Shown one piece after another: positions 5,306 through 64,000 of a stretch of DNA of 64,000 nucleotides (within the stretch, counting starts at the first letter, position 1; each line of letters opens with the position of its first letter). The stretch comes from Tethya wilhelma (lineage: Eukaryota > Porifera > Demospongiae > Tethyida > Tethyidae). The translations under genes were made by a program, and so were the position numbers. Under the pieces are notes generated by a model. The model had not been told where the DNA came from. It did not search any database and saw nothing but the letters and a program-made list of their open reading frames with translations. The DNA is taken from the NCBI GenBank assembly GCA_964030475.1, contig CAXIPT010000005.1, forward strand, positions 3,252,097 through 3,316,096, written 5' to 3'.

Positions 5306-5366
5306 ACCCGGCCTAGACATGATGTCACATGCAATTAAGCGCTAATAAAATTCCTTAGTGCTTTAC

Positions 5367-5454
5367 CTGGAAAAACTATTGTTGATGGGGCACCAAGGAA
5401 AACAAATACGACAAAAGAGCATGCTGCATAAGTCGCTGTTTGTACTGCTGACAT
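5367..5454 (-). CDS. Possible first coding exon with hydrophobic leader
   Basis: ATG at 5454 opens a frame starting MSAVQTATYAACSFVVFVFL, which looks like a signal peptide or membrane anchor. It reaches a good GTAAAG donor after 29 codons plus one base (phase 1). An alternative upstream ATG in another frame (MFEGKLTH) reaches the same donor. The next exon was not found with confidence; the acidic exons at 2184-1746 are in the wrong phase to follow directly. The family is unknown. The long AT-rich stretch 5455-5938 upstream shows no further gene. Confidence 0.3.
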
Positions 5455-5938: not shown

Positions 5939-6521
5939 ATCTCGTGCTAGCCTCGTCCCCAGGCCCAAAAGAGGGCCTGGTACACACTGTTTGCGCATGC
6001 GCGTAATTATTGCCGTGAAACCACGTGGTTTTATGGGTGTGTTCATAGATGACGTATTTATATCGAACGCTAAACGAGCTCTAGGATCTCTTAGAAAGCT
6101 TCTATGAGCCTATTTATACTTAGTAGTTGTAGAGAAACTAATAGAGTAGTACCTCATTAGATCAAGAAGCTTACAACTAACATCTGCGTTGGCAAAGTTG
6201 AGAAATTGTCAGTGGTGAGTGCCTGTGTCTTGAAATACGACAAAAACTAATTCAAAGTGATAGATAAGTAGAAAGACATCCAGCCATCTACTCTAAGCAA
6301 AAAAAACTTTGGCTAAAAATACTGCTATTCTATGGATCACTTCTCTTCATACTTTTAGAATGGGGGTCCAAGGTACACTAATTGAGAAGTGACGTCAAAG
6401 TATACGGACGTGTGTCGATAGTTTTCAATCGCCCTGGAATTCCAGGGCGATTAAGCGCATGCGCAAACAGTGTGTACCAGGCCCTCTCTTTGCGGGCCTG
6501 GGAACGAGGCTAGATCTCGTG
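5939..6521. mobile_element. MITE with 8-bp target duplication ATCTCGTG
   Basis: The element 5947-6513 begins CTAGCCTCGTCCCCAGGCCC and ends with the near inverse, GGGCCTGGGAACGAGGCTAG. It is flanked on both sides by ATCTCGTG (5939-5946 and 6514-6521). An exact 8-bp duplication beside inverted termini is direct evidence of transposition, and the length fits hAT-type superfamilies. Sub-terminal GCGCATGCGC palindromes occur at both ends. No protein is encoded, so it is non-autonomous. Related ends with the core CCTCGTNCCCAGGC recur at 6533-6629, 18797-18852, 24376-24440, 36408-36478, 47340-47431, 50540-50627 and near 54405 and 54645. Confidence 0.85.
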
Positions 6522-6532
6522 CACGCTGGCTA

Positions 6533-6629
6533 TAGCCTCGTACCCAGGCCACTCCCAGTTTTTGCTGTGTTACACGCAGAAAACGATTTTCTGCGTGCAA
6601 AAACTGGGAGTGGCCTGGGTACGAGGCTA
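6533..6629. mobile_element. Compact perfect hairpin MITE
   Basis: A 97-base element whose two halves are almost perfect inverse complements: TAGCCTCGTACCCAGGCC at the left and its complement at the right. The stem continues through CACTCCCAGTTTTTGC with only a short loop. It shares the CCTCGTNCCCAGGCC terminus with the neighbouring 567-bp element but not its interior. Confidence 0.8.
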
Positions 6630-20612: not shown

Positions 20613-21344
20613 TGTTAGGGAGTTACACCCATGCTCATGCACTACATGTACTTCTAGTTTTATCACACTTTTGCCTTTCTTCATATCTATCGCATACTAA
20701 GTTTTTCCAGGCATTCCTGGCTTATACCTTTCAACTTGCAAAATTCAAAATAAAGTGCTGGGAATGATTGGAGTCAAGGTTATGTATTGCCTATAACCAC
20801 TTGTCGTTGTCCTTTTAAGTGTCACACTGACCCTTTTCTGGGTTTACTGTAGTCTGTAGCTCGTTAATTTTAGTCTATATTGATCTGCAGCAACTGTTGA
20901 TGTCTTGATGGCATGATCAACAGACTGTTCTTGAAGCTATTTGGTGAATCTAAAATCCTTTTAAATCTTTCTAATTTGTGATATTGGGTAACCATTTAAA
21001 TTATTTGCTTGTTTAAGTTATGTTGATTATTGCCGTTTAGACCAACTTGGTGAAAATTATTGTTTTAAATTTTGTAGCATTAAATTTACTTGTGTTTCTG
21101 GGAAAAGTTTCTCAATCCTAAACTATGGTATACAGGTTTTCAAAGAGTAATTTCCTGAGTTTGGTCTCAAAACTTTAGAGAAATATGAGGATGTAGATCA
21201 AAATACCTCCAAATTACATATGAATTCCAGTGGCGGTACTCTGTTGTTTAGTGTGGCGTTACATAAACTCTTAGACATTGATGACTTTAATTCGTTTCTG
21301 TTTACTTCTTGTGTTTTGTGTGTACTCTTCTCTTTATAATTTGG
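20613..21344. other. Intergenic, nothing recognised
   Basis: AT-rich spacer between SNRPG and the TRIM-NHL gene. It presumably carries the TRIM promoter and 5' untranslated region. No repeat or motif stands out. Confidence 0.5.
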
Positions 21345-23342
21345 ATGGAGTCACGGACCAATAGTAGTGTTGTTCGAGTTAAGAAAGCACGTGATGAATT
21401 AACTTGTGCAGTTTGTTTACAGCCTCTTAAAAACCCAAAGTTGTTAGATTGTGCTCATTCTTTCTGTTGTGACTGCTTAGTTGGTCTTGTGAAATCTCCA
21501 ATTGTGCAAGGTGCTAATCAAAGAGGCTATATTTCATGCCCTAATTGCCGGAAGATCACAAGTTTACAAACAGGTGGAGTTGACTCATTACAGGATAATT
21601 TTACAGTTCAGAACTTGGTTCAAATAATTTCAGGAAGCAGCAATACTATTATGGAAGAAGAGAAACAATCTTCTGCTGTAGCGAATGAGCAACTGCCGAC
21701 ACCACCTCAACCATCAATGACTAATGCATTACTCCCAACATGTGATGTTCATTGTTTGCCACAAGAGTACTATTGTGCTGAATGTAATGAACTACTCTGT
21801 AGAAGTTGCATGATGAAGCAGCACCGTTTACACAACTATGATGTAACAGATGTAATTCTCCAATCGATTAGTGCCTCATTGTGTGAGCTTGTACAGCCAG
21901 CTTATGAGACAGTAACAACTGCTGAGAGCCTAACAAAAGAACTTGCTCGTTGTAAAACTGAGTTTACCAGCAAGAGTGAGGATGTAAAAAGGAAGATAAC
22001 CGATTTCTTTGTTGATATGCGAAAACTTCTTGACGAACGTGAAAAAAATCTCTCACATTCTGTGGATGAGTATTGCACAAAGCTACTAGAATCAGTGAAT
22101 ACTGAGGACAACAAAGTATCACAAGCTGTAGCAAATCTTCAAAAATCAATTGAAAAAGTTCATCAATTGATTGATGGTAGAAATGTGAGTGCAATTATTA
22201 CCCAAGGAAAGAGTGTAGCTGAAAGTCTTGAAGAAAATCGAACAAAAGTTTCAGAAACTCTTAAATTACAAACAAGATTTAACTTTTCACTAGCTTTCGA
22301 ACATCAGGTGGAAAGTACCATTTTCCATAATGTAGGCCAACTTACGGAAGATGGAAAGCGTTCCAATCTTGAGGAGAGTGGTTCAGAAGTTAAGAAGAAT
22401 ACACAAAGTGCTTCTGCTGCTGAAGTGTCACGAAGACTGTCTGTACCATTGTTTAAGCCTTTACGTGCCCTTGAACGATCAAATACTACTCCATTACCTT
22501 CAGTTATTGAAGACATTCAACCTGTTTCTGTGATACAATTGAACAGGTCCAATGAAAGTATTCATCCATGTGGTGTAGCTGTGACAAGTAGCAGTAATTC
22601 AGTTGTAGTGTCAGATGTACACTCTGGTTGTGTTAAAGTTGTTGCTTACACTGGTAAGGTGATTGATCATATTCAAAGCCACAAAACATCAGGAAGCCAT
22701 TTTCGAGGTCCTTGTGCTCTTACTTCACACAAAAACGATATCTATATCCTAACTCGAGAGAATGCAAAGATTTACAAATTTTCCAACGGACATCTTTCTG
22801 AATTTAAGTACAAGAAACTGATTGATCCAAGAGGAATTGCGGTTACTGGCGAAAAAATTTTTGTTACTGATTGGCAATGCAACTGTGTTCATGTGATTGA
22901 TCAGCACAACAGCAAGTACCTTAATAGCATTGGTGGAGATTTTATCAAACAACCTGCTGGAATAGCAGTGAATAACCATGGACATTTGGTAGTGGCAGAT
23001 CAACAAAACCATTGCATTTGGATATTAACACAGGATGGAAAGAATGTTGGACGACCGATTGGAAGCAAAGGAACTGGACCTGGTCAGCTTAATCAGCCAC
23101 ATGGTGTTGCTGTTACAACAATTGGAACTGTGCTGATCAGTGAAAAAGAAAATTCCAGAATCTCTATGTTCAATGAACATGGAGAATTAGTTTTGTGTTT
23201 TGGTAAACGAGGAACTTCTTCTGGACAGTTCAACCAACCACGCCATTTATGTATAGACCCAAGTGGAAAACAAGTGATCGTTGCTGATGAAATGAACCAA
23301 CGGATTCAAGTTTTTGAACTGCAAAACTTAGGAAAAACATAA
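21345..23342 (+). CDS. TRIM-NHL protein (RING, B-box, coiled coil, six NHL repeats)
   Basis: A single exon of 665 codons from ATG at 21345. The frame opens slightly earlier but has no earlier ATG. In order: a C3HC4 RING finger (CAVC ... CAHSFCCDC ... CPNC, about residues 20-68), predicted to recruit E2 enzymes; a type-2 B-box (CDVH ... CAEC ... CRSC ... HRLH, about 128-165); a coiled coil to about residue 310; a Ser/Thr-rich linker; and six NHL repeats (about 405-660). Examples of the repeats are DPRGIAVTGEKIFVTDWQ, QPAGIAVNNHGHLVVADQ and QPRHLCIDPSGKQVIVAD, enough for one six-bladed propeller. No filamin domain lies between coiled coil and NHL, so the layout is closer to TRIM32 than to TRIM2/3/71. 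It is probably an E3 ubiquitin ligase, with NHL binding RNA or protein. Intronless structure may reflect a retroposed or lineage-expanded copy. Confidence 0.93.
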   Translation: MESRTNSSVVRVKKARDELTCAVCLQPLKNPKLLDCAHSFCCDCLVGLVKSPIVQGANQRGYISCPNCRKITSLQTGGVDSLQDNFTVQNLVQIISGSSNTIMEEEKQSSAVANEQLPTPPQPSMTNALLPTCDVHCLPQEYYCAECNELLCRSCMMKQHRLHNYDVTDVILQSISASLCELVQPAYETVTTAESLTKELARCKTEFTSKSEDVKRKITDFFVDMRKLLDEREKNLSHSVDEYCTKLLESVNTEDNKVSQAVANLQKSIEKVHQLIDGRNVSAIITQGKSVAESLEENRTKVSETLKLQTRFNFSLAFEHQVESTIFHNVGQLTEDGKRSNLEESGSEVKKNTQSASAAEVSRRLSVPLFKPLRALERSNTTPLPSVIEDIQPVSVIQLNRSNESIHPCGVAVTSSSNSVVVSDVHSGCVKVVAYTGKVIDHIQSHKTSGSHFRGPCALTSHKNDIYILTRENAKIYKFSNGHLSEFKYKKLIDPRGIAVTGEKIFVTDWQCNCVHVIDQHNSKYLNSIGGDFIKQPAGIAVNNHGHLVVADQQNHCIWILTQDGKNVGRPIGSKGTGPGQLNQPHGVAVTTIGTVLISEKENSRISMFNEHGELVLCFGKRGTSSGQFNQPRHLCIDPSGKQVIVADEMNQRIQVFELQNLGKT

Positions 23343-24513: not shown

Positions 24514-27500
24514 ATGGCAAGATCGATGCAACTTGTCGAGAGCATGAATGCAAAGTTGTTGATGTCACTATTGATTGCTGTCTTAGCAAGTAAAGGTCTC
24601 TGTCAAGACAAAAGTGAAAATGTTCCAACCACCCTACAAGGTACTAACTAAATGAACCGGAGGTTTGCTAGCAATAATTTGTTAATCAAACTAGTGACTG
24701 TGACTCACAGTGAGGACCTTCCGCACTTCAAAACTAGTGAAAGAATTTCAAACTATTCTTGACTATTTGCCGTGTAAGCTATGGATTCATATTCGAGCTA
24801 TTTCTTTTATACGAAGACATGTAGTCTCATTGGCCAGACGTACCTTGTGGGTGAAGTTAAAGGGGGATGGGGGAGAGGAAAAGGAGCATCCAGAGGAGGT
24901 TCGACACGGTTGACCTTTTTTAATTAAAGTCCTCCACGCGCACATATAATGTACCGTAGAGTCGGGTTATTAGGTGCACTTTGTTATTATTGGCGCACAT
25001 TCGCTATTAGGCGCATGCTGTCTTCTTATAAAGGTTGTTCGCATGCTGTCTTTTCCATGAACAACCTTTGATAACAGGCGCAAAGTTTATAAACTGGATG
25101 TTCACTAAGCCTGTCAGCCATGAACAACGCTTTCTTTCACTACTTGGCCTTCCATTTCACTTAGAAAAGGCAGCTTCTCGCCGCTTTTAGAGCTCTAGCA
25201 CCGCTAGCGCAATCGATTTCTGCTTGATGATGTCATTTATTTTGAGGCATGGTCATACGTTAGCCCTCGTTATTAGGCGCACCTCGTCATTTAGCGCATA
25301 CTTTTTCATTAATATCCCAATAAGCGCATGCGCTTAATAACCCGACTCTACGGTATTGAACAAACGGAGGACGTGGTGGACTTTAATTGCAAAAGGTCAA
25401 GCAAAGGTCAACTGTGTCGAACCTCCTCTGAGGAGCATCTGGTAAGAGTCACCAAGTTACCTACCAAGTACAAAATGTCACTAAATTCAAAGTACAGCGA
25501 TCTGATTAGCATTTAGGCAGAACACACAGGACCAGATGTCTAAAGTTTATAAGGTTGCTAATAGCGTATTTATCTCAAACCTGTTGTGCCTAATGAGCTG
25601 TTTCAAGCCATGCAAGTTTTTTAGGCTCAGTTTTGGTTGATCAACACGGACGTCCACAAAAACCCAGCGACGGAACAGACTTTTTTAAAACTTTCCTTTC
25701 CTGAACAATTTTCCCCGTTATTTTGTGGCACTATTAAAGAAGATATTTGAAACATGCATCCAATTTCATTGTGTAAGTGTTTATGCTTCTTTTTGCTTGT
25801 AGAAGAAGACTGGGGAGATGATTTAAAAATTCTCACAACATTTCAGCCAACTTTGTGTGAACACAGAGCAAAAAAAAGTGATGTTATTCACTATCACTAT
25901 GTTGGAAGGCTAGGTGACAGTGGAGAGGTATTTGGTAGAAGGTTAGTATTGTGTGTACTGCAAAAATTATACCTTGGTCTGGTTTGTCCTGACCCTTTAC
26001 ACACACACACATGGGAAAAAGGGTCTGGCGCAGACCATACACCTTTCGTGTCGCCCAGGCCAGAATTCTGGCCTAGTATTATCACTCCTGTAGTTAAAAT
26101 TTATGTCGCATAAAATTCTTGTGGTTTTGAGTGTTTGTGCGCGAGTTTTTGAAAGAGCAGTTTTCTATGAACAAGAATTTTAACTAATGACTAGAAATGA
26201 AGCTCTCCTGTGTTTTCTACTATTGTTGGAGGTCAGTGTGGTGAAAAAAATACTGTCTTGTCAAATATATTTATTTCCAAATTGTACTATTGTTGATAAT
26301 GATTATAGCCTTTTTTATGTGCAATTTGGAAATAAATTGATAACTGCCGTGATATTGGTCGTTGCATCTTTAAACTGCATACATAAGCTAACAATAAGTT
26401 ACTTACCTGTCTATCACCTCAAAACTCACTTGTATCTAGTAACAGAATCAGTTAATCAGGTAAAATGTGAAAAATTCTGGCCGATTATTGATTACTTGAT
26501 CTTGATTATTATGATGGCTTGGTTTGAGGCGGTGCTACATGCAATCAGGACTTCTTTGGGAATACCAGTAGTAGGAAGATTGAACTTCCAGATTTGATAA
26601 CCAAAGTTACATTGAATGTAGTACTGCAAAGACTATTAGTACTAGAGTCTAGTTGTTTTTTTCAAAAAACTAGTCTCTAATTGTGGAATTCTGTGTGTAA
26701 AGTTCAGATATTAGATTCAATGTCTGACAATTTTGTTTCCCATAAATTGCTCAAATCTACTTGCTTCCTCAGCTTTGATTATAACTCCCCATACATTGTG
26801 TCTCTTGGACATGGACGTATCATTGCTGGGATGGATCGTGGATTGATGAACATGTGCTTGTGGGAGAGACGTAGGATTACCATACCTCCTCACCTTGGAT
26901 ATGGGGACAGAGGTGTTGGTCAAGTCATCCCACCAAATGCTACATTGGTGTTTTATGTCAGGCTTATTAAAATTGAGAGGGTAAGAGAGATGACTGAGTA
27001 ATGAACGATTTTAAACACAAAAAATTATCTATCAACAGAATGGGCATGCTTTAGGTGAAGACCAAAGAATGAAAGATGTATGGAATTCTGGACTAGACAG
27101 TTATTCAGCAGAAAATTGGGACCAAGCTATTAGCATGATTGAAGAAGCAGTACGCCTCTTTAACCTTTATGAGAATAAAACCTTAAGCTGTTTCAGAGAA
27201 TGCAGGGATGAAAGTACGTAATTTATGTATATGGTTTGTTGCCCTTATTTTATACTATCTGATTGTTGATTTTGTTGCTAGTATATTATATAGGTCATTT
27301 CAACTAGCTATAGCTACACATACTTAACTTAAATTTTGCTAGTAGCTAAGCTTAAGCTAATTCTGATATGTTGAAAACATTAACTATTGAGCAAACTTGA
27401 AGTAGGAAGTACTAGTGTGCTGCCATTCAATCAATATTTGTTAGCTAAATTGATATACTTGGTTCTGTCTGTGTTTTGATTATTTACTAACACAGATTTG

Positions 27501-30500
27501 CTCTGTACTATAGTAGCATGACCTCAATCTCTGTTTAGTTTTATCAGTGAGTATATGTAGCGTACTGTATGACCATTTATCTCTTTATTCAATGTTGCAT
27601 TGGGCTATATATTGTAGGTGGAACTGAAAGTATTACATTGCCATAGCACATTGTAGCTCAGTTCTGAGCATGTTTGTGCTAATTTAAAATTGTATTTTTA
27701 TTTCTTATTGTTTCAGGGTCTACCATTCCAGCTAATGAAAGTAGTGATCCTCTTGTTGAACAGTTTTTGTTGTATGCAGTAAGGGGAAGGTGTATTAGAG
27801 AATGTAAGGCTAAGAGTCTGCCTTCAAAGTTACGTACTCCAGATCCTTTCCTACTGAAAAAGTTTCGAAGGCGGTTACCCTACTCTTATTTACATTTTGC
27901 ATATTACAAGGTAAGAAGACACAAATCTCAAGTATTATAACATGATTTTTTTGTGTGTATTTCATTTTCCTATTAGCAAAATGACTTTGAGAATGGAGCC
28001 AAGTGTTGCTTTACTTTCTATCACTATAACCCATCTGAGCAGTTAGCCATTGACAGCTTGCCTTTCTATCGCAGTAAGCTTCAACTAAAAGAAAATCAGT
28101 TTGTGTTTCGAGAACCTGGTATTGCTCCGCACCAAGAAGTTTATCTGAAAGGTTTGATTTCAGTAATCTATATCCACAAGTATGACATATTGTTGCTTTA
28201 AATCATGCAAGCCCCAATAGTATCGTGGTAAATGAGTGGTTTGTATGTCCTAGCTTATGTATGTCCTATATATATATAGCTTATGTATTTGTATAGATGA
28301 TGTAATCGCTTGACTGTCTGCTTTTCGTATATATTCTAATTGCTGCAAATTAGCCTTATGCATGCCATGTGTCCATGAAACCCTGAAAATGTAAACACTG
28401 CTCTTTCACTGTTACAGTATACTGAGGAGAAAAGATAGTTATGGGCAACTGCAAAATATTGAAAAGTATATTCCCAGTACGGTAATACTGGGTACACAGG
28501 AATGGCACAGATGCCCCATTAGCGCAATACAAATATTCACGGGAAGCAAAAACTGAGCGCTTGGCACTAAAAGGCTTCTCAAGCTGCTATTTAGCTCATT
28601 CTCTTTCTAACAAGCCTAAAAACATGGCCTAAAACCATCGATAAAGTACTTAGCCATTGACAGCTTGCCTTTCTATCGCAGTAAGCTTCAACTAAAAGAA
28701 AATCAGTTTGTGTTTCGAGAACCTGGTATTGCTCCGCACCAAGAAGTTTATCTGAAAGGTTTGATTTCAGTAATCTATATCCACAAGTATGACATATTGT
28801 TGCTTTAAATCATGCAAGCCCCAATAGTATCGTGGTAAATGAGTGGTTTGTATGTCCTAGCTTATGTATGTCCTATATATATATAGCTTATGTATTTGTA
28901 TAGATGATGTAATCGCTTGACTGTCTGCTTTTCGTATATATTCTAATTGCTGCAAATTAGCCTTATGCATGCCATGTGTCCATGAAACCCTGAAAATGTA
29001 AACACTGCTCTTTCACTGTTACAGTATACTGAGGAGAAAAGATAGTTATGGGCAACTGCAAAATATTGAAAAGTATATTCCCAGTACGGTAATACTGGGT
29101 ACACAGGAATGGCACAGATGCCCCATTAGCGCAATACAAATATTCACGGGAAGCAAAAACTGAGCGCTTGGCACTAAAAGGCTTCTCAAGCTGCTATTTA
29201 GCTCATTCTCTTTCTAACAAGCCTAAAAACATGGCCTAAAACCATCGCTAAAGTACCAAACTAAACTATGCCAAACCTCCAATTTTCTCCATCTTCTTTT
29301 TCTTCTTATTCTTCTATGTTGGCAAGACTTTTCTCAGAGACCGCTCGCTTTCAGAAGCTGATTCTTAAACGAATAAACTTGGTATCTTTGTCTTCAGTCG
29401 CTTTTGGCATCGGTTTTTCATGTCTCTCGTCCAGTCGCTCTATAGATACAAGACAGAAAGTGCCTTCTCCATATGGCCGCTATTAATTTCTAAACTCATG
29501 CATATTCATGATACTTGGGAATTTAAGTTGACGACCCTTTCCACATAGGCAACTGTGCGTTATTTGGAATCCACAGCTTATCTGATCAGTGAACTCTATC
29601 TACATTTCTTCAATAACTATCTTGCTACTATTGAATAAGCAACTTAGCACTGAAAGTAACAAAGTTTTGTGATGCCACTGCTCCGCCTGCAGTGATGCCA
29701 GGTCCTGCAAATTCAGTAAGCTAGCACTGGGACATGTACCATCACACATTCAGTCGGACACCATCCACACTGATACACACGGCACTCATTGATAGAATTA
29801 TGAAAAAATGAGAGCAAACAAGAATAAAAAACATTAAAAATGTGATGAGACACAGGAATGGCCAAATCATAAAGAAAGCAAACAAGTGGAATGGCTGTTA
29901 GTGTGTAAAGAATTCTTCCTGTGGGCGAAATTGAAGGACTTGACACAGTAAAAAGACTATTACATGCAGCCCATAGAAGGATTCTGCACACACTCTAACA
30001 GCCATTCCACTTGTTTGCTTTCTTTTTTATGATTTGGCCATTCCTGTGTCTCATCAAATTTTTAATGTTTTTTATTCTTGTATATATATATATATTTATG
30101 TAAGACTCAGTGGTTTAGGAAGTATGAGTGCACCCGGTAGCTTTCGGGCAGTATTAGTCATAAAGATTCATCCATGTTATAGAACTCTGAACACATTTGA
30201 GTATGAACATGTTCAAATGTGCTCAGAATGCACCTCACAGCAGCTAAATTCTCAAAATTTCTGGTGGAGCATACTCATACCCCCAGACCCAACTGGAAGT
30301 GAGCATAGCTCATTGCCACCAGTGCTCAAAGGTGCATCTACTGCAAAAAAAACTCCGTACGTCACTGAGACTGGCATTGTAAAAGCTAGAGCACTTAGTA
30401 TGCTAAGTGGCAGACAGCTACACAAATGTAGCACATTACATACAGCTAGCTAGCTATTAGTACATGGAAAATTCATTGGAAAAAGTCTCCAGATCTAGCT

Positions 30501-32932
30501 GGGATTGGAACCTAGATCTTTCGAATTCCAGTTGAATGTACATCTTAATGCGTGGCAGGCAATTGTGCAAATTTATGTAGTTTTGTATCCTGCCCATATT
30601 CAGTTTTCATCTGTCTAGCACACCTCTATGCTTTGAATAGACTCAGATGTGATTATAGCTACCAGGCTTCCCCTTTCTTTATGTGTAAGATAGGCGGAGG
30701 GAATGTGGCTATGAGGATGCAACAACAGGCTGAAAATGAAGAATAGTACTATGCAAAGTGTATGCCAAGACCCCTAAGCACCAATGAGATTAACTACTTT
30801 TGAAGAAGACAAAGACTCCTAGAACAGGAAAGAAACACTCTGTCATCAACCAATGAGTTTAATTAACTCTTTTATGTTATACTCTTCTACCATATGGTAG
30901 GTCTCATTCCCACAGACTAGGCTTAACATGCTTGCTTCTGCCCATTCCATGCTTGCATACCACTACAAATTAGTTTGCAGATTGGAAAACTTTACTTCTA
31001 AAGATTTTTGTGTTAGCTTGTTAAATTTTTTTCCATTTCTGTAAAGATTGTCATACTAGTACTGCAAAAAATATTCCCAGTACGGTAGTATTGGGTACAC
31101 AGGAATGGCACGGATGCCCCATTAGCGCATTACAAATATTCACGTGAATAACTCTGCAAAAACTGAGCGCTTGGCACTAAAAGGCTTTTCAAGCTGCTAT
31201 TTAGCTCATTCTCTTTCTAACAAGCCTAAAAACATGACCTAAAACCATTGTTAAAGTACTAAACTAAACTATGCCAAACCTCCAATTTTCTCCATCTTCT
31301 TCTTCTTCTTATTCTATGTTGGCAAGGCTTTTCTCAGAGACCGCTCGCTTTCAGAAGCTGATTCTTGAATGAATAAACTTGGTATCTTTAGTCTTCAGTC
31401 GCTTTTGGCATCGGTTTTTCATGCATGTCTCTCGTCCAGTCGCTATAGATACAAGACAGAAAGCGCCTTCTCCGAATGGCCGCCATTAATTTCTAAACTC
31501 ATGCATTATTCATGAACTTTTGGGAATTCAACTTGACGACCCTTTCCACATACACAAGTGTGCGTTATTTGGAATCCACAGCTTACCTGACCAGTGCTGA
31601 ACTCTACCTTTCTTCAATAACTATCTTGCTACTGTCGAATAAGCAACTTATATAGCACTGAAGGCAACAAAGTTTTGTGATGCCATTGCCCTGCCTGCAG
31701 TGATGCCAGGTCCTGCAAATGCAGTAAGCTATATAGCAGGACATGTACTGTCACACATTCAGTCGGACACACACACTCAGTGATACACACGGCACAAACT
31801 CACAGATTAGAATTATGAAAAAATGAGAGCAAACAAGAATAAAAAACATTGAAAATGTAATGAGACACAGGAATGGCCAAATCATAAAAAAGAAAGCAAA
31901 CAAGTGGAATAGCTGTTAGAGTGTGTGCAGAATTCTTCCTGTAGGCGGACTTGACACAGTAAAAAGACTATTACATGCAGCCCATAGAAGGATTCTGCAC
32001 GCACTCTAACAGCCATTCCACTTGTTTGCGTTCTTTTTTATGATTTGGCCATTCCTGTGTCTCACTACATTTTCAATGTTTTTTATTCTTGTATAAGCAA
32101 AATCCTCATGCAACCAAATATATTGCATCTATATATGCCTAGCTAATATCCAGTTTCAACCCAAGCTTCCAAAAGTGCCATATTTCCCTGAAGCTGCTTC
32201 CTGATCCAAGTATATGTTAGAACATGCCTACTAGGGCGTTATTGGAAATACAGGAGGTAATATATATGTTGAGTAAACCCGAGGGTTTATCAATATTACC
32301 GAGTGTATTTCGATATTGCCTGTCAATAGGCATGTTCTAATTCTTGTATCCCAGCACTTAGACTTGTCAGTAGTTTCTTACCACTTTTGAGCTGTTTGAG
32401 AGCAGTTTTGACTTGAGAAAGAGTTTTAGTCAACTTTGGGTTTATACGCTAAAATTAACTTGAAACAGAGAAAATATTATTTACGAGGGAAAACTAACAG
32501 TTTTCTGAGATTTGTTTGAAGCGCTGGAGTATCTTCAGAGTCTTGAAAGGCACACAGGGTAATATGAAGGGGAGAACCGAGGGAAATATACATATTGCCC
32601 TCAGTTTTCCCCTTGCTCAGGTTTCTTGACGTTATACACCATGAAACAATGTGTTAGTAGTATGGCTTCCTGGGATATAAACATAGATTATGGGGATATA
32701 TCATACAATACTATTATTTTATGATCGTTAGTATAATATCTTCTTTTAGCTTTTGATCCCTCTAGATTAGTCTTGTGCCAACTTATAAACACATTACAAG
32801 GGGTGAAGCCTCAGATCTCAGAACTGCAAACTTTTGTTGAATTCTTTGTGTAAATTTTTCGATAATCTCGATTATTTTACCTTGGTATGCCGCTTTTAAT
32901 GACTGGACTCGCTATTCTTGAGATATAGTTGG

Positions 32933-32976
<44 letters not shown>

Positions 32977-35900
32977 GAGACAAAACGACTACCGTAACCC
33001 TAGGTGCACATGCGCACCAAGGGTTAATTATGTTCAAATGTAGAAGTATTCTGTTTACTTTGTTGATCACTTTTCTAGCTAAACAGGCATATGACCAACA
33101 GAACTGGCTGGAATCTGCTGATCATTTTGAAAAAGCTTTAGTTCTGTATCGTGATGCTCTTCAAGACTGCTACTTGATGTGTGAAGATGTAATTCAGGTC
33201 AACTTGACTGACCCCAACATGGACCCACAAAAAATGGCGCTGTACACTGAAATTAATATCAATGCTGACAGCATGGAGTTCAATGAACTACTGTCTTCCA
33301 TAGTAAAGGAGGTATGTTAAAGCTGTATCAATTATAGTAGGTGGGCCAAAGTTTGAGACATTACATTTCAAAAATGTTTTGATCTTTGACCCTGCATCTG
33401 AATGGGGGTTAGGAGTTAACATTTGAATGATCTTACAAGTTACATATTTTGCTGTGCTGTGGTTGCTGAGATTTTGAGGCTAAGAAGTGCTATATATTGC
33501 TCAATGCTACTGTCAATTAGCAAGACAGACAAGGGTTAGCTTGGTTTCTACTTAAGCATAGATGTATTGGCGTTTGTAGATTGTAGGTTTTTTTAGTATG
33601 GCTAGCTACTCGGCTGATGGCCATGAGACTGAGGTTAACCAGCTAGATATTACCAGCTATCTGTCGACCAACAGCTGAGCATTCCAGTACATGCATGTAT
33701 GCTCATGGTCTGTGGCTTGTGCTGCTTCATCATAGAGTTATTTGGCGTATAATTTGGGCCTGGGTAGATTCTTGATACACTCATGGCTATCAATATGATA
33801 CACTCTCACACATTGTCAAGTGCACTAGGTAGTTATGTATGGTAAGGTTAGAACACCATAAGCCCCTTCATTTTCCCAGTATTTGATGTTCACTTGAGCT
33901 CTCTAATGACTTAACACTTCAACAATGATTGTCACGAATTCGTGACAATCAATATTCATAGCTACCACTTGTGATACCGTATAGCTCCAAATTTTCGTGG
34001 TACAATATTTTCGTGAATTTCGTGATTTGACCGTATATCACGAAAATTTTCTCCACGAAAATTTAGAAAACAGTATATTGGCAATATAATTTCAGAGATC
34101 GTGATTCACGAAAATTAGCTCAAAATGGCAAAGACAGACTTTTCACGAACTTTTTGAACCACGAAAATTTGGAGCTATACGGTAAATGATTGTCAGTTTC
34201 CATGACACCTGCATATATACTAGTATAAAGCTTAGTATCTTGGGTCTTTTTTTTGTCAGCTATAGCTAAACAGATTTTTAAAAGTGATGCTATGGATATA
34301 TGGTTTGGTTTGGTGCACCAGCATAGTTGATAATAGAGCTTCTGCTCAGTAGGACAATGGAGAAAAAGTACTAAACCCGTGGTTGCAGCCATGTCAGGTT
34401 TATGAATTAGACCTAGCAATATCTCCAATTAACAATGTCCATGAGTGCACAGTTTGAGAATGACCACAAATGTTTTGACAATGACTATATACAAGTAAAA
34501 AAAAACATTGGAAATGTAATGAGACACAGGAATGGCTAAATCGTAAAAAGAACGCAAACAAGATGGAATGGCTGGTTAAAGTGTGCAGAATTCTTCCTGT
34601 ATGGGCTGCATTTAACAATCTCCTTATTGAGTCTCTCATTTTGCCCACAGGAAGAATTTCTTACACACTTTAACCAGCCATTCCATCTTGTTTGCATTCT
34701 TTTTACGATTTAGCCATTCCTGTGTCTCATTACATTTCCAATGTTTTTTTTACTTGTTTGTTCTCATTTTTCCATAATTCTACAAATTATATTTGAGTTG
34801 GTGTGTGTAGCTAGCTACTGAGCTAGTAGTCTGGCAAGCCAGACTCACTGAGCCAGTGGCGGGCTGCTGAGCTGGTACTTGAACAACGGTCACAAGTTGT
34901 GTAGCCTGAGTGAAACACACATCTCAGTTATTTGGAGGCAGGAGCTGTATCATAAGATTTACTTGTCTTTCTATATGTTATGATAATCAAAGTCCTGATT
35001 CATCTCTTAAGAAGAGCAACCAGGTATCACAAAATAGTTCCAGGCAACTTCAGTGCATTTAATTCTAAATAACGCACACTTTTGTGTGTGGAAAGGGACG
35101 TCAATTCGAATTTTCTAGAAGTAATGAATTATGCATGAGTGTAGAAATTAATGGCGGCCATATGGAGGAGGCGCTTTTCGCCTTGTATCTAACTACTCAA
35201 TGAGAGGCGCTAAAAACCGATGGCAAAAGCGAGTGTACCGGAAGAAACCAAGTTCGTTCGTTCAAGAATCAGCTTCTAAAAGTGAATAGTCTCTGAGAAA
35301 AGTTGAGCCAAGATAGAAAAAGAAGAAGAAGAACAAGATGGAGAAAATTGGAGGTTTGGCATATTTGTACCTTAGCAATCGTTTTAGGCCATATTTTTGG
35401 GCTCATTAGAAAGAGAATAAGCTAAATAGTAGCTTAAGAAACCTTTTAGTGCTAAGCGCTCAGTTTTTGTAGAGTTATTCGCGTGAATNTTATTTGCGTG
35501 CATATTTGTATTGCGCTAATGGGCCATCCGTGCCATTCCTGTGTACCCAGTACTACCGTACTGGGAATAGACATATAAAGAAGCTTATCAATAGCTTCTA
35601 TATGTAATTTCAAGTTGTTTTAGCAGATACTATGCCAGTTGTCCATTTATTTCTAAATAACATCCATATAGATTTTAATAGCCTTGTAGGTTGCGATCTN
35701 CTTTAGAAGCCTTTTAGTGCTAGGCGCTCAGTTTTTGCAGAGTTATTCGCGTGAATATTTGTATTGCGCTAATGGGCCATCCGTGCCATTCCTGTGTACC
35801 CAGTACTACCGTACTGGGAATAAGTGCACAGTTTGAGAGCAGAGGAGGTACGAAAGGGTCACGTGATCCATCTATTTTGCTGACTCAGCTTTGAGCATCC

Positions 35901-38285
35901 AGTATGCAAGCAGTACTTTATCTTAGGCTCTCTAGTTTTCAGGGTTGCCCACGACTTCCCTGGGCAAATTTGGTACCAAACGATTGAGAAAAGTTGAAGA
36001 AAGAATCTGGGTCCCCCTGCCCGTTGATTCAAGCAACTCTCTTTGTGGTAAATGGCGATGAAATTTTTGGTCAGAAGGATGCAGACTTGCTGAAGTGCTT
36101 AAGTGGCAGCCAAACTGATTTTTTGGCCTCTACCTAAGCTGGAAAAGCTCAGATCTCTGCAAAGATGTTCAAAAAGCTTGCAATATCTAGTCGCTAAAGT
36201 CATACGCGCTCAATGGAATGTAATTAAATCACGTGAATTTCACTGAAAGTCAGGTGGAATATTGATGCTTTCGTACCTCCTCTGGTTTGAGAGTGACAAT
36301 GAGTATGTATTTGAGAATGACCATGGGCATTTTGAGAATAACCATTGGTATGAATATGCATGTTTTACAATTTTGTCCGATTTGAGATTCCACAGAAGAA
36401 GAAGAAGTAGTCTTGTCCCCAGGCTCCCCTTTGACCTTTCATTCAAGGAAAGGAGAAGGGGAGCCTGGTATCTGATATCACATGCATGACATCAACCGTT
36501 GCTAAAGAGCAAATGCGTGGCTACAAAATCTAAAAGAAAAGTAGTTGCTAGTAGTTTATCTTCTACAAGTAGTTTTAAAAATTATAGATCGTAACTAACT
36601 AATGCTCTAGACTTGCCAAAATCAGATGAAAAGACTGGCTAAGCTGCTCATAGAAGCATTTCAAGTTGCCATGATGTCAGCCGGGGTAGTTCTGTACAGT
36701 TTGACTCTCAAAGGGAAGCTTGGTAACAAAGCTAAAGAAGAAGAGTGGAAGGTGGGCATGTTTTAGTTTGGTACTATGGTAGTTGTTTTAGGCCTTTTTG
36801 GCATATGTTAGATTGAGAATTAGCTAAATAACTTAGCTTTAGAGTCCTTTTAGTACCATTTGCGGTATTGGGCCATCATTGCCATTCCTATGTACTGTGA
36901 ATGAACCTTCCTTATGAATTCATGAGCAAATAAAATATTTCATCAGAAGTTTTACTTTTAAAAAAAGCTAGCACCAGTTGGTTCCTAGAAAGGCTAATTC
37001 TACTGCTGATTAGGTTTTGGTTTGTAGAAAGGCTAAATTCTACTGCTGATAAGGTTTCTGTCATGGACTGTCCTAAAACCTATTATTTATATCATGCATA
37101 CATATCATTCTTTTGTAGGTTCTTCAATGCCGTGTCAGCTGCCATGACAAGATTGCCATTATGGAAGGTTCACAGATTGAAAAATACCTAAGTGTTCATT
37201 TCCATTACCTTCAATACTGCTACTACAAATGTACGTAGGTTAATATACATGCATGTTTTTCTATTTTGCATGTGCAACATCATTGATATGCCATTTGTTC
37301 TTTGTGTATTTGAGTTGGGAATGCTAGCATTATTAAAAAAAAAATAATTAGGTTGTGCATTTGTGGTTTGAGGCATCCACACAATTTACTGCTTGCTGGA
37401 TTTTTTTATGGCCACTGCATTCATGCATACATAGATCTTGGCAATTTATATTAGTGGCCTATCTAGAGTCTTAGTACTGTCACTTTTATTCTCAGCTGTT
37501 GTAGATTCTGCTCTCTTTATCCAGTAGTATCGATATCAATCCATGCACCCAGCATTACTGAATTAAGTAGCTAAGTCAGCTGTGAGACTATTCTGCCTGC
37601 CGGTTTTGTATGGCCACTATTATTATAGTTTCATCATTGAAAATCATAATAAGTTTCTAGGCTGTAATGATTTTCGCTCACAAACAAAGTGATACGAGCT
37701 TACCTATGTGTAGGTTATTTGCCATCCACCTGGCTACAATGTGCTTTAGAGTTGCCATGCCCCTCGTACAAAGTCCTTCAGTTGCCTGTGCCAGTCGTTC
37801 GTTCTTGCACAGATGAATTCAAAGAAGCGCTTTATCCAGAGTTTACGTTTTCTGGGCTTTGCAGTCAGTTGGACGATTGCATCATTGTATATATGGACAT
37901 ACAAACCACTCGTTCACCACGCTACTGTGGGGGTTGTTCATGCTCGCCCCAAATAAATCGTGTGCTCGAACATAGCGCACTCTCAAATTCACCAAAATGG
38001 AATTGGTGAAATTGATAGGCCACGCGCTAACTATTTGAGGAAATACCACACTTCATAAACAAGCAAGGAGCATGGCTTGCTTTGTTCGCCAAGCTCCTTG
38101 TATGTAATGGAATATAATACATAATTTGAATAATGTTTCCATTTGCAGTGGGTTTATTGAATAAAGCTGCAAGTTGTGCTGCAACATACTTAGCATTGGA
38201 GCCTTCTGATGAAGTAATGCTACAGAACATTCAATTCTATACAACCGATCACAAAATATCTTCTGATAAATTCATACCCAGAATG
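24514..38285 (+). CDS. Signal peptide + FKBP isomerase + CRTAP/leprecan module fusion
   Basis: Ten exons: 24514-24640, 25803-25941, 26773-26980, 27039-27213, 27717-27910, 27977-28151, 33079-33311, 36611-36751, 37119-37230, 38149-38285. All are GT-AG and in phase, giving 547 residues so far. The 3' end was not found. Residues 1-35: signal peptide (KLLMSLLIAVLAS, cleavage near GLCQD). 43-158: FKBP domain with VIHYHYVG, GHGRIIAGMDRGLMNMC, PPHLGYG and PPNATLVF, most like FKBP9/10. The catalytic-pocket Asp of FKBP12 (in FD) is Gly here (FGRS), and the pocket Trp is Met. 159-547: CRTAP-type repeats, first SYSAENWDQAISMIEEA, second YSYLHFAYYKQNDF, third AYDQQNWLESADHFEKAL, fourth FHYLQYCYYK. The four CxxxC motifs of leprecans are present (CFREC, CIREC, CYLMC, CRVSC). 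The exon 3-exon 4 intron is 58 bp and the CRTAP part has no leader of its own, so this is one polypeptide. Predicted role: ER collagen proline isomerisation and scaffolding. Confidence 0.85.
24953..25355. mobile_element. MITE with TACCGTAGAGTCGGG termini
   Basis: The left end TACCGTAGAGTCGGGTTATT and the right end CCCGACTCTACGGTA are inverse complements. The interior repeats GGCGCA-type words and contains GCGCATGCGC. It sits in intron 1 of the FKBP-CRTAP gene. The TACCGTA start is shared with two other MITEs in the window. Confidence 0.85.
25975..26215. mobile_element. Copy of the TAGTCTGG MITE
   Basis: Contains the family blocks GACCCTTTACACAC, GGGAAAAAGGGTCT and GGCCAGAATTCTGGCCTAG, then CACAAGAATT-type sequence in inverted order relative to 4658-5305. 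It lies in intron 2 of the FKBP-CRTAP gene. The 136-codon ORF that follows (26187-26597) is intronic. Confidence 0.6.
28043..29256 (+). repeat. 607-bp direct tandem duplication beginning inside an exon
   Basis: 28043-28649 and 28650-29256 are nearly identical head-to-tail; I saw one difference, ATCGATAAAG versus ATCGCTAAAG near the 3' end. The unit starts inside exon 6 of the FKBP-CRTAP gene (at QLAIDSLPF) and includes its donor site, intron and the start of a CCCAGTACGG element. The second exon fragment has no in-phase acceptor, so it should not be spliced in. It is either a very recent duplication or an assembly error. Confidence 0.85.
29072..30085 (+). mobile_element. Near full-length CCCAGTACGG non-autonomous element
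   Basis: Begins TTCCCAGTACGGTAATACTGGG and passes through GCGCAATACAAATATTCACG. It ends with a palindromic hairpin (about 29795-30085) whose arms carry CCAAATCATAAAGAAAGC and CATTCCACTTGTTTGC and their inverses. It is about 1 kb with no coding capacity. The 5' 180 bases are duplicated at 28467 by the 607-bp tandem duplication. Confidence 0.75.
31074..32095 (+). mobile_element. Full-length CCCAGTACGG non-autonomous element (reference copy)
   Basis: The cleanest copy of the family. The 5' end is a short palindrome, CCCAGTACGGTAGTATTGGG. The body contains CTGATTCTTGAATG and CGCTTTTGGCATCGG. The 3' 290 bases form a long hairpin with arms at about 31805-31945 and 31985-32095. At least four near-complete copies (here, 29072, 34486 inverted and the degenerate 9870) plus fragments lie in this window, all in introns. 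Confidence 0.8.
32219..32340. mobile_element. Short MITE with GAACATGCCTA ends
   Basis: GAACATGCCTACTAGGGCG at the left and CAATAGGCATGTTC at the right are inverse, with a second internal inverted pair around the GAGGGTTT turn (ACCCGAGGGT). It lies in intron 6 of the FKBP-CRTAP gene. Confidence 0.55.
32933..32974. repeat. (CA)n microsatellite
   Basis: About 20 perfect dinucleotide units, 100 bases before exon 7 of the FKBP-CRTAP gene. Confidence 0.95.
33975..34184. mobile_element. MITE with TACCGTATAGCTCC termini
   Basis: A 210-base element: TACCGTATAGCTCCAAATTT at the left, with the inverse at the right. Internal inverted TTTTCGTG/CACGAAAA copies mirror the design of 20403-20612, which is the same length, but the inner sequence differs. 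Same family, different subtype. Confidence 0.85.
34486..35573 (-). mobile_element. Near full-length CCCAGTACGG element, inverted
   Basis: Reverse-oriented copy. The hairpin half is at 34486-34780, the body carries CAAAAACTGAGCG (complement), and the start palindrome CCCAGTACTACCGTACTGGG is at about 35550-35571. An N at 35489 may mark an ambiguity or small gap. Confidence 0.75.
35705..35822 (-). mobile_element. 5'-end fragment of the CCCAGTACGG element
   Basis: Repeats the last 118 bases of the preceding inverted element almost exactly, after an N at 35700. This may be a real second insertion or a duplicated contig end. Confidence 0.7.
36408..36478. repeat. CCCAGGCTCCCC hairpin
   Basis: GTCCCCAGGCTCCCCTT and its inverse AAGGGGAGCCTGG enclose a short loop. 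Member of the CCTCGTNCCCAGGC hairpin group. It lies in intron 7 of the FKBP-CRTAP gene, 130 bases before exon 8. Confidence 0.65.
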
Positions 38286-38658
38286 GTAAGTTTAACTTCA
38301 ATGCATGCAGTTATGAGGGGGCAGTACTGTAAAAAGCCTAATTAAGGCACATGACTTGTCATACATGAGGTATATACGTACAGTCGAATATCGGAATAAA
38401 GGGAAGGAGGCTTTGGCCTTTATTCAGAAGTTGGCCTCTGGTGGGAGGTTCATCACTATACACTAGGAATTGTGTTGAAGTTTAATGGTATATGCATGTG
38501 CATCACAATAACAGGGAGTAAGAAAATAGTTCAGAGTGATTTGAGTACTCAATAGATACAGAGAGCATCTATGAAGTGTTAATTAGTGGCAAAATTAGGT
38601 GATTTTACTCTCAATATTATGAACATGGGTTGATGATTCTGAAGGCTGCAGCCTTAAT

Positions 38659-38936
38659 CATTCTAAAGGCAGTCTTCATCATGAAGGCACTATACCATTC
38701 TGAAGGCAGTCTTGATCATGAAGGCACTGTACCATTCTGAAGGCAGTCTTGATCATGAAGGCACTATACCATTCTGAAGGCAGTCTTGATCATGAAGGCA
38801 CTATACCATTCTGAAGGCAGTCTTCATCATGAAGGCACTATACCATTCTGAAGGCAGTCTTCATCATGAAGGCACTATACCATTCTAAAGGCAGTCTTCA
38901 TCATGAAGGCACTATACCATTCTAAAGGCAGTCTTT
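38659..38936. repeat. 37-bp minisatellite, about 7.5 copies
   Basis: Direct repeats of a 37-base unit with core GAAGGCACTATACCATTCTG then AAGGCAGTCTTCATCAT. Units differ by a few substitutions (TTGATCAT versus TTCATCAT; TCTGAAGG versus TCTAAAGG). The unit itself contains two half-repeats starting AAGGCA. There are no spacers, so it is not a CRISPR. Confidence 0.95.
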
Positions 38937-39002
38937 AGTAGTAGCTGGCTACTTTAGTGTTTCATTTTTTTAAAAGATGTTATTCTGAGGGTATCATACA
39001 TA

Positions 39003-40680: not shown

Positions 40681-43600
40681 AGTGGTGGCATTTGCCTCAT
40701 CAGTTTTATCTAAAGGTTCGTCCTCCTTGAGATCCTCTTTATTTAGTCTACTGGAATCTTCTGAATAACCTTCCAAGTCTACATCTGTGAGCTTATCATC
40801 ATTGTGTCCTGCACAAATTCAAATATTGCTTGTTAGTAATATTTTTAGTGATCTACCTTCATAAATATATTAATCTGTGTCAGCAAACATAGCATGCCCT
40901 CGAATTTACCACACAAAAAAAGGAAATGGTGAAATGAATAGGACGAACTAACTCCATCTGGTTTGAGAATACTGCCGGAAGTGAAATAATGCAATACTTT
41001 TCCTATGGGACAAATAGCTAACTTTGACTGGTAAGATGTAAGAAGCTGAAAATGCTATAAAAACCGGGGAGAATGAGTGCTTTCCAATAGTGTTTGAAAT
41101 TTTGAATAATAAGAACTTAAGTTATTCTACTGGCATTCTCAGACCAGATGGACTTATTCAAGAAAAATACAGTATGCTATCAGTACCCACAAAAGTTTGT
41201 AAAGATAACACATTCTAAACTATAATGTTTGTGATTGTCACTAATTTTCTACTGTGCCTTGTTTAGGATTAAAAGAAGATTAAGACTGAACACTAAACTG
41301 AATATGCTGATTAAATGTATCATAGACAATCTTTGGAGGCTACAGGCTGTTGCTAAAGTGCTGCTAATGTCACTGGAGCCTCCTTCCACACTCCTCCTTA
41401 GCAAATACTTCCCTTGATAATACATGTCAGTAAGTGAGAGTCTGGTATCACTAAAGTTCTAGGTTGGGCACCATGAGCATTTTGTTACATACCTGGTCCA
41501 GTACATGTGGCTTCCGCAGCTGATGCACCATCTTTGCTTGGTATAGATGACTGGGAGCTTGTCACACTACTGCTACCAGGTGGAGGTGGGCGTGGTGGAG
41601 GGGGACGAGAGGGGGGAGGGCCAGCCGAGGAAGATGACTTTGCTTTGGAGCTTGTATCTTTATCACTAGCACTGCGGCGACTTTTTCTATTTTTCCACCT
41701 CCTAAAGAAATTAATACACTCATATGGTCATTATTCTCAATTACCATATAGCCGGTTATTTTGGCAGGAATTAAGTTTGGCGAAAGGGTGCTCAATCGAT
41801 ATTGGCAAACTTTAATTTTGGCGAATGAAACATAGAAAGCGCATCACATCATATGGCGAAATTAGTATAGTAGTAGCTACGTGTATATGCACTCTTTTTA
41901 TTTTTCTTTTACTAAAGTAGATTTGACAAAGCTTTTCAAGTCATGAAGCCAAGCAACAATCAAACTAACTGTGCTGAAAGCCTTCTTACATAAATAGTGA
42001 AGCTTCTGGCAGTGTAAAAAATATGGGAGGGGCTAATGCACTACAATTGCAGCACAACTAAAGCTTTTAAAGAAGTAAGTATAAAAGTAGGCTGACAAAG
42101 AAATTAGCAGCAGCATGGTCGACACAGTAAGAAAAAAAACTTCAAGCACGGTGATTGACAGCCTTACTAGGCTAAGTTGACTGTGAAAACTCTCTGTTGT
42201 GTACTACACCATTTTCTTGCTCTGTTTTCTAGTTTAGAGCCTCGTAGCTACTTTCAGTCCAAGTTTTGACATGCAATTTGAAACGCTTGCTGCTACATTG
42301 AAATTGTGTTTGTATTAATTAGAGCACATGGACGGAATGATTTTTTAGAAGCATTTGCACAGGTGTTTTGCAAAACGGGACAGGAACTTTATTCTGAGGA
42401 GTATTGTGGCTGTATGGTGTTTTCAATCAGTGCCATAGCCTATGGCCGTTACACTGAAGTTGGCCACTTGTGGGAGGAGCTGTTATGAGAGGTTCCACTG
42501 TAACCATTGATTTGATGTACCCTTATCAATGGACTATATACCTTAATTAATACAGACACTGACCATACTTACTTAACCAAGGAGGGTGATGCTGGGACAT
42601 CAGGATCAGGTAGATAGTATCCCTTTGCCTTAAGTATCTTGCTACGGTTATTTCTACGCATAGTCAGAACTTCAGGTGATGGTAAAGTACCACTATACGC
42701 CTATATGAATGTAATTGCATAAGAATTTGTGTAGCTTTTTCTGTTAGAACATACATGTACATACAGTATCTCAGCGGTTAACAAAGAATATAATATCACT
42801 AGCCTCACAACTCTGCACAAGTTTGGCCCAAACTTAAGTACTGAAAGAGCGGAACTCGAGAATGAAATATGGCCATGCAGTGTATCTCAGTTACATAATT
42901 AACAGCCCCAAGTAGTTTCAGAATTTCCAGAGAGAGCTCAGATCTTGAGATAAGTGTTTTGCCAATGAGTACTATAACCCTCGGGTCTGCACTCCGTGAC
43001 TTGGGTTAATAATTAATCCAATACAGTCTCACTGGTTATTCACACTCATTTTTTTCCTTTTTAACCTCAGAAATGTAGGTTGGAACTGAGAAGGGTTGGG
43101 GGCTGTAGCTCAGTGCTAGAGTATTTTTTTTTTTTTGTAGTGCAATTAACGGTGTGTATGCATCAAGTACATTCCCTTTGTGCCCATCAAGTACATTCCC
43201 TTTGTGCCCAAGTACATTCCCTTTGTGCCAAACATAATCTACACATGTATACTGAAGCCTATTTTGAGAAAAAGGATATAGTTACAGGCAGAGAGAGAGA
43301 GTCTGAAATAAAACTTAGCAGCATAGTACATGTATCTTATAGATAGTGTATCTAGAGCATGTACCTGTTTACAAGCTAACATCACTCCCAGGGGCAGTAT
43401 GGGGTCAACGATTCCAGTTAATCTAGAAGGAGATCCTGAACTCTTGCAATTAAGAGAAGGGTACACCGAGAGGATGGCATTTGGCAGTCGCAGACCAAGC
43501 TGTTTGAGCTTCATAGCCACTGATATAGCAAAGTTACCACCAGCTGAATCTCCTGCAAATACTATATACTCCCCAGTAGTACCTGCAAGTGGACAAGCGT

Positions 43601-45104
43601 AGAAGATTGTGAAGTCATACAGAAGTGAAATATGGACACATCAATGTACATACACATCCCAGGTGGAAATTAGACCAGAAATCTGCGGTAAAAATGTGGA
43701 ATTATGTGGTAAACCGCAGTATTTCACTAGTGGTATTCCACTGTTTCTCGCCACTTAACCATGCATTGCCACTTTTTACTACCGATAAACCATGGAGAAA
43801 AACTAGCTAAGAGTTACTAACACCTTTGTAAGGCGTGTAGACATGGCTACTTACAGCGTACACAAAATGCCTGAGCTACAAGACTAGCAGAACTCTGACT
43901 CTTGAGCTGACACAGCAAATGGGTGGAGTCAATCTTGGACTATAGTAACCAAAATAAGCTTTTTCAAGCGTATAATGTAAGAAATAAGCACTGTTTTAAC
44001 AGTGTGGCTATAGGGATAATAATTTCTGTATGTCTGTGAATCAGCAAAGTTAGCGTGCATGGCTTGAATCTAGGCTAGAAAAGCTGCATAGCTTAGTCTT
44101 GTCATGAAAGCTGTGAAATAATCACCGAAAACCGTGGACTGTGGTTTCACTCCAAAAACCAGGCTGGGACAAAAATCACGCCACATGGTGTATTTGGCGG
44201 ATTTATGCACGAAACACAGTAATTACACAGTAAACCGTGCAACCGTATGTATGTAGCGACTGACAGACCTGGGGCTTTTTGTAGTTAATGTTAATTTTTT
44301 TTGGCAATGAAAAGAGCTTCTTGATATGAACTTTTCATTGAATCTCATATTTAGAACATAACAGTATCTACCCAGAAATTTGCAGCATACAATATTACCC
44401 ACACAGTTAGCCCCTTTGTGTGCAGCTTATGTACCGAGGGTAAATGATGCATGAGTATACCTAGTTTCTCCAAATTTTGCAAGATCCATGTGTATGCCAA
44501 CAAACATTCTTCCATTGCTCTTGGATAGGGACTTTCAGGTGCCAAGGAGTAGTCGACAGAAATAATTGGTACATCCAATTCCCGAGACCACTGACGAAGG
44601 TAAAACTACAAAATTAATGGGAGTACACCATTAATATTTAGAATACCACTTTTCCAATCAATGATGTCTCATTGCTGACTGGTAAGAAGTGATTACCAGG
44701 CAAGACTGGAGAAGTTTGTATGGTATACAATATATGAAAATATGTTTTACCTCATGTGATTGTGGAGACTGTGCAACAAAACCACCACCATGAATGTGAA
44801 ATACCAGCCCTGTACAAGGAGGAGAGGGGTTTTTCCGTACAGATCGACCAGTTCGAAGCTACAATAAAACAAGTCAAGTACAAGTTAACTTAACTTCTCT
44901 TAACATTAAAGCATAAATACACTGTACCTGGCCGTCTCTCCACCGATGTGAAATAAGCAAGAGTCTCACTGGTTTGTAGCCAGCATCTGAACAGGGTGGT
45001 TTGATTTCTACTTGACCATTTGTGCTTTCTATAGTTAGTGGCTTTGCTGGCACCTCTAACCAATGTCGAATTTCAACAGATTGTGCAACTACTTTCATGG
45101 CACC
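40681..45104 (-). CDS. LIPE: Hormone-sensitive lipase (HSL), partial at both ends
   Basis: Exons on the minus strand: 45104-44928, 44858-44751, 44605-44461, 43582-43365, 42701-42573 (approximate ends), 41701-41493, 40808-40681. Splice sites are good and phases join. Visible: [13 protein letters not shown] before the catalytic fold; the oxyanion motif [36 protein letters not shown]; the nucleophile elbow [10 protein letters not shown]; and [11 protein letters not shown], all matching HSL rather than other GDSAG lipases. Then comes the regulatory insert: a basic [16 protein letters not shown], a Pro/Ser-rich stretch ([15 protein letters not shown]) and an acidic segment. RRSAS fits the PKA consensus at the place where mammalian HSL has RRSVS. 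Missing: the N-terminal HSL domain (about 300 residues) and the C-terminal exons with the catalytic Asp and His. The N positions at 46005 and 40317 are the likely reason. Role: cytosolic hydrolysis of di/triacylglycerol and cholesteryl esters. Confidence 0.9.
43161..43229. repeat. Short tandem repeat (24/20-bp unit)
   Basis: Three copies of AGTACATTCCCTTTGTGCC, the first two preceded by CATCA. Just upstream (about 43100-43124) is an A-box-like GCTGTAGCTCAGTGCTAGAG followed by T13, possibly a truncated tRNA-derived SINE. It lies in a LIPE intron. Confidence 0.75.
43640..43960 (-). repeat. Dispersed repeat, copy 2 (inverted)
   Basis: Inverse of the repeat at 40270-40560 (AACACCTTTGTAAGGCGTGT, GGTGGAGTCAATC). 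It lies in the LIPE intron between the exons ending at 44461 and starting at 43582; no coding sequence in this 880-base intron. Confidence 0.5.

Positions 45105-46045: not shown

Positions 46046-64000
<17,955 letters not shown>

Follow-up and report, generated by a model that had tools for sequence, protein, structure and literature searches.

The question raised by this locus is whether one sponge gene encodes both an FKBP-type prolyl isomerase domain and a collagen-chaperone scaffold of the leprecan family, and what a protein so built might do. The stretch analysed (the window) comprised 64,000 nucleotides of the Tethya wilhelma assembly GCA_964030475.1 (contig CAXIPT010000005.1, forward-strand positions 3,252,097 to 3,316,096). 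An FKBP-CRTAP gene of nine exons was located on its plus strand at 24514-38285, spanning 13,772 bp and encoding 500 amino acids. All nine exon borders were of the GT-AG type and the joined frame contained no stop. An initial annotation, made from the letters of the window, had claimed a single polypeptide with every splice phase joining; this was borne out by the model and by fused proteins from three sponges. The domain families are known ones. Their joining is new, and it is accompanied by a change in the FKBP pocket that the fused proteins share.

The reading frame opens in exon 1 (24514-24640), which runs from an in-frame ATG to a GT donor and encodes a hydrophobic leader (11-residue hydropathy peak of 2.95 at residue 15); in-frame methionines at 24526 and 24544 are alternative starts. 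Leaders were called by hydropathy only, without a signal-peptide predictor. The FKBP domain is divided by a splice join between exon 2 (25803-25941), containing its N-terminal part, and exon 3 (26773-26980), likewise spliced in and containing its C-terminal part up to Arg158. It was matched by Pfam FKBP_C (PF00254) at residues 62-154, in a single copy, with 94.4 bits (cut-off 21.1; E 5.4e-27), and by FKBP2 and many other FKBPs of solved structure. Three fragments (P0129, P0133 and P0134) have homology limits at the same residues as the start and end of exon 3. The FKBP part stops at Arg158, the exact site of a phase 0 intron of 58 bp (26981-27038), the length given in the initial annotation. 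Exon 4 (27039-27213) comprises the 13-residue linker and the start of the leprecan module, with the motif CFREC. No second leader begins in exon 4 by hydropathy, and the N-terminal one was the sole leader seen, as had also been proposed.

The tetratricopeptide repeat (TPR) module continues on the plus strand through exon 5 (27717-27910; CIREC), exon 6 (27977-28151), in which the first TPR half ends, exon 7 (33079-33311; CYLMC), exon 8 (37119-37230; CRVSC) and exon 9 (38149-38285), which contains Asn481 and the end of the module. Pfam TPR_leprecan (PF23557) matched residues 172-487 with 187.6 bits (cut-off 27; E 4.6e-55) over profile positions 5-308 of 310. The four CxxxC motifs stand at residues 209, 242, 370 and 421, so that the module is complete, as first described; four are likewise present in each of the relatives P0001-P0008 introduced below, and two in the truncated relative P0070. 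The nearest solved structure by sequence was human CRTAP (E 1.4e-37), with P3H1 lower (2.4e-25). The Pfam model of the prolyl 4-hydroxylase (P4H) substrate-binding domain touched the second TPR half with 24.5 of 27 bits in the window protein, below the cut-off, and with 42.7 bits, above it, in Halichondria panicea. For the predicted model of a relative, all 50 entries shown in the VIA-align table were FKBP, leprecan, P4H substrate domain or FKBP-TPR proteins. The identification of the module as a collagen-chaperone scaffold was upheld by Pfam, by the CRTAP match and by this model. Judged by its domains, the predicted protein is a leprecan of the CRTAP/SC65 branch with an FKBP domain at its N-terminus.

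No EF-hand was matched by Pfam in the window protein, which does not have the four FKBP domains and EF-hands of FKBP9 and FKBP10. A dioxygenase domain had been reported absent downstream. This held for the window, where a P3H1 catalytic probe gave a best E of 0.67, and the five genomic matches to PF13640 all lay outside the window's contig (C5); it did not hold for the genome, which has such a domain on another contig. In the relatives, the TPR module is followed by a C-terminal end in HxEL, with no dioxygenase in the same protein.

Fused proteins were collected by a search over 5.8 billion proteins (best 120 of 216 matches listed) and by a profile search with nine fused proteins plus the window protein (best 120 of 297 matches listed). 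At least nine proteins (P0001-P0008 and P0070) contained both FKBP_C and TPR_leprecan, and among the matches listed the same nine topped the profile search, followed by further fragments. The co-occurrence of an FKBP domain and CRTAP repeats in one protein, which the initial annotation had suggested looking for, was thereby found in three sponges: the demosponge H. panicea (complete fused model), the demosponge Geodia barretti (partial model of 448 amino acids, starting inside the FKBP domain) and the glass sponge Oopsacas minuta (Hexactinellida; partial model of 318 amino acids, ending inside the TPR module). The other six proteins are frames of 519-548 amino acids whose longest contigs measure 1,759-3,037 bases, with only 163-246 contig bases outside the frame in P0002-P0004 and 547-1,411 in the remaining three. 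Given the shortness of these contigs against a window gene of 13.8 kb, the six most likely represent spliced RNA. In P0122, a fragment from another source (longest contig 3.2 Mb, letters unlike the window's), the FKBP exon reads through into the TPR exon, the two being separated by 53 codons (159 nt) at the position of the window's intron. The fusion is real beyond this assembly and is present in three sponges of two classes. When the TPR part was used on its own as a protein query, only the query itself came back, which is uninformative on stand-alone sponge CRTAPs.

A tree was made from 49 FKBP domains, 12 of them fused and 37 from other, hand-picked proteins, with a root for drawing only. 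The 12 fused domains and P0122 formed one group (100/100), and a 95/88 branch parted this group from 20 FKBP9/10 domains. Because the fused domains group together, a single origin of the fused FKBP, before the split of demosponges and glass sponges, is likely. The earlier label 'FKBP9/10 type' is thus supported in part: of the four domains in the FKBP9 used for comparison, domain 3 came closest (52.6%), but the fused domains have a clade of their own. Database records name one half of the protein, as SC65-like or cartilage-associated protein, or as peptidylprolyl isomerase, FKBP9-like or FKBP2, and the architecture is therefore easy to miss. The initial annotation knew of no description of it, and none of an FKBP-leprecan fusion was found by titles and abstract openings in the part of the literature covered. 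In the portions of PMC4132317 covered, sponge and placozoan proteins are scored against SC65 and against FKBP6 separately, and no fusion is mentioned.

The protein is probably a chaperone of sponge collagen chains resident in the endoplasmic reticulum (ER), consisting of a CRTAP/SC65-like leprecan scaffold with an altered FKBP domain tethered at its N-terminus. The TPR part would hold proline-rich procollagen in the groove used by CRTAP and by the P4H substrate-binding domain, and the scaffold would probably pair with a separate prolyl 3-hydroxylase (P3H). The tethered FKBP could then act on, or clamp, prolyl bonds of the same chain, being either an isomerase, slow or specialised, or a proline-binding chaperone. 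The aromatic residues taken here to correspond to the groove positions are Y274, F277 and Y280 in exon 5 and Y447, Y450 and Y453 in exon 8. Aromatics of the first half were kept, apart from two sites in P0070 and a single site in P0006; in the second half they were kept as well, the final position of P0002 and of P0005 excepted, and the Asn of that half was present in 9/9. In CRTAP, the collagen peptide lies in the TPR groove in a prolyl 4-hydroxylase-like manner, Asn184 forming bonds and Tyr and Phe lining the groove (PMC12433258). HxEL is the terminal sequence of all eight relatives whose C-terminus is complete (HEEL in four, and HAEL, HQEL, HNEL and HSEL); it resembles the KDEL-type retrieval signals and may be enough to retain the protein in the ER. 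Since these relatives run about 45 residues further, position 38285 is predicted not to be the end of the window gene, and exon 9 is followed by a donor, GTAAGT, toward a tail exon that was not found.

Several observations weigh against this reading. The gene model is known from genomic sequence alone, and its C-terminal tail exon was not recovered by tblastn with the tails of five relatives; nothing convincing was obtained from a tail profile on 924 plus-strand segments, among 751 acceptor-to-stop candidates, or from a whole-genome search with one tail. The CRTAP Asn184 site is Asn in 6/10 sequences and Ser (Ser308, exon 6) in the window protein. Confidence in the FKBP part of the predicted model was middling (10-residue means of 51-83). 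In the FKBP pocket, Asp37 and Arg42 are taken here to be the pocket residues of active FKBP12. The Asp37 site is Gly in 9/9 and the Arg42 site Tyr in 12/12 readable fused FKBPs (P0008 was dropped from this tally as too short, and P0122 was counted among the others). Among 365 other FKBP domain alignments, the Asp37 site is Asp in 301 and Gly in 24; the Arg, too, is retained by most of them. These losses argue against an ordinary isomerase and leave the 'hard-wired isomerase' of the initial annotation unproven.

The same replacements are the basis of the chief rival explanation, by which the FKBP domain is a dead or near-dead isomerase serving as a structural or docking arm, for example to a lysyl hydroxylase, while the work on collagen falls to the TPR part. 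It is consistent with the strong constraint on the domain: among eight sequences compared in 28 pairs (the partial P0008 and P0070 were excluded), mean identity was 72% in the FKBP, 37% and 42% in the TPR halves and 36% in the linker. With this identity and the Asp and Arg replaced, the domain is strongly kept, yet is not a textbook isomerase. Docking has precedents in the complexes of FKBP65 with lysyl hydroxylase LH2 (PMC12794382) and of SC65 with P3H3 and LH1 (PMC4847768). On the other hand, six of the nine remaining pocket positions have the FKBP12 residue (Y26, F36, I56, Y82, I91 and F99), F46 is replaced by Tyr and W59 by Met, both common in other FKBPs, and V55 conservatively by Ile; because these nine are kept or mildly changed, the pocket is not wrecked. 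The 24 other domains with Gly at the Asp site, among them the fourth domain of the FKBP9 compared, also speak against loss of function. A docking arm is possible but falls somewhat short of likely.

It had also been suggested that, in a P3H complex of sponges, the fused FKBP may stand in for cyclophilin B (CypB). The vertebrate complex has CypB as its isomerase subunit (PMC12794382), and the fusion does place an FKBP on the CRTAP part. However, the same genome (124.6 Mb; match counts in it are lower bounds) contains a CypB-like gene at C25:37158, 87% identical over 62 residues to a human CypB sequence and with a leader-like exon upstream, as well as separate P3H exons, and the FKBP pocket is altered. 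As P3H and a CypB-like gene are both present, the fusion does not make either dispensable, and the replacement is unlikely. A misjoining of two neighbouring genes, with FKBP and CRTAP transcribed apart, was regarded as very unlikely and rejected. If the 58 bp intron were retained, a stop after VREMTE would end the FKBP part, as separate transcription would have it. Against this, exon 4 is without a leader, fused models recur in three sponges, the fused frame is present in full in six further proteins (in three cases on a contig without room for usual introns), and the two exons of P0122 are separated by 159 nt at the position of the window's intron. A tethered collagen-chain chaperone in the ER is retained as the probable explanation.

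The catalytic exons of P3H lie on the minus strand of contig C2 at about 3233378-3237158, where five exons and a weak sixth were matched by the P3H1 probe (E down to 9e-20); one of them matches human P3H1 641-691 (E 1e-18). On the same strand, about 34 kb away, a second leprecan gene lies near 3271281-3272863; it has a leader of its own, and only its first half was seen. These exons and the P3H exons may belong to one gene or to two; no second TPR half turned up in the interval. This second leprecan gene stands head-to-head, a few hundred bases off, with a plus-strand FKBP_C gene (region C2:3268001-3278000, about 3281-6543), an FKBP and a leprecan being adjacent again, but unfused. A leprecan exon copy in C89:38001-48000 (4687-5157) is 97.7% identical to C2 over only 471 bp, and may therefore derive from a divergent haplotype or from partial duplication. 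Exons of the P4HA N-domain were located on C4. FKBP_C had at least 12 matches in the genome, one being the window gene and several coming from one gene, and no four-domain FKBP9/10 was seen among 11 loci compared with an FKBP9.

Two tandem repeats were observed within the gene region. One, absent from the initial annotation, lies at 28043-29247 on the plus strand and has a period of 607 bp: bases 28043-28640 (598) recur exactly 607 further on, and the repeat copies the end of exon 6. An AG at 28652-28653 in the second copy would allow an in-frame cassette exon of 105 nt (28654-28758), or the copy may be an assembly artefact. The other is a 37-bp array at 38622-38972, directly after exon 9, in the intron expected to hold the tail exon. 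Elsewhere in the window, a single-exon frame of the TRIM-NHL type (RING, B-box, NHL repeats) lies just upstream on the plus strand (21291-23342), an Abhydrolase_3 (alpha/beta hydrolase) exon lies downstream on the opposite strand (43242-43640), and an intron-free frame of 1269 residues on the minus strand (57446-61255) had no Pfam match at 0.001.

Retention of a covalent FKBP-leprecan in two sponge classes suggests an advantage in having both activities on one chain, a fixed distance apart. It speaks for a direct functional connection between FKBP and a CRTAP-like scaffold in collagen folding, for which vertebrates have separate proteins, and by Rosetta-stone logic predicts a contact between FKBP and CRTAP/SC65 in vertebrates. 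The single polypeptide could serve structural work on isomerase and leprecan cooperation. A bolder proposal, which we regard as doubtful but worth stating, is that the fusion arose before the demosponge/glass sponge split as a self-retained collagen-folding unit, that its remodelled pocket clamps the chain lying in the TPR groove instead of isomerising it quickly, and that vertebrate ER FKBPs (FKBP65 or its kin) should touch CRTAP/SC65 directly. 3-Hydroxyproline has been traced back to sponges (PMC3973637), and defects in CRTAP, P3H1, CypB and FKBP65 lead to recessive brittle-bone disease (PMC12794382, PMC4847768).

Compared with known systems, the window protein shares its scaffold with CRTAP and SC65 (P3H4) and differs from them in that an FKBP domain separates its leader from its TPR module; its relatives add an HxEL of their own. 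CRTAP and SC65 are non-enzymic leprecan proteins. FKBP9 and FKBP10 (FKBP65) likewise combine FKBP with a leader, and the FKBP9 compared ends in HDEL, but the window protein has one FKBP domain, no EF-hand match, a position across the 95/88 branch and the pocket Asp and Arg lost. In FKBP51/52 and FKBP38, which are cytosolic, partner Hsp90 and have TPRs of a different type, an FKBP is likewise followed by TPR helices and structural matches were partial; the window protein has instead a leprecan TPR module and a leader. A further counterpart is the P3H1/CRTAP/PPIB complex (PDB 8k0e, 8k0f, 8k0i, 8k0m, 8k17, 8kc9), in which a leprecan scaffold is also combined with a prolyl isomerase family. The sponge version is a covalent fusion with an FKBP, not a cyclophilin, in a genome where the CypB-like gene persists, and whereas the vertebrate complex is retained in the ER by the KDEL of P3H1 (PMC12794382), the sponge relatives would be retained by their own HxEL.
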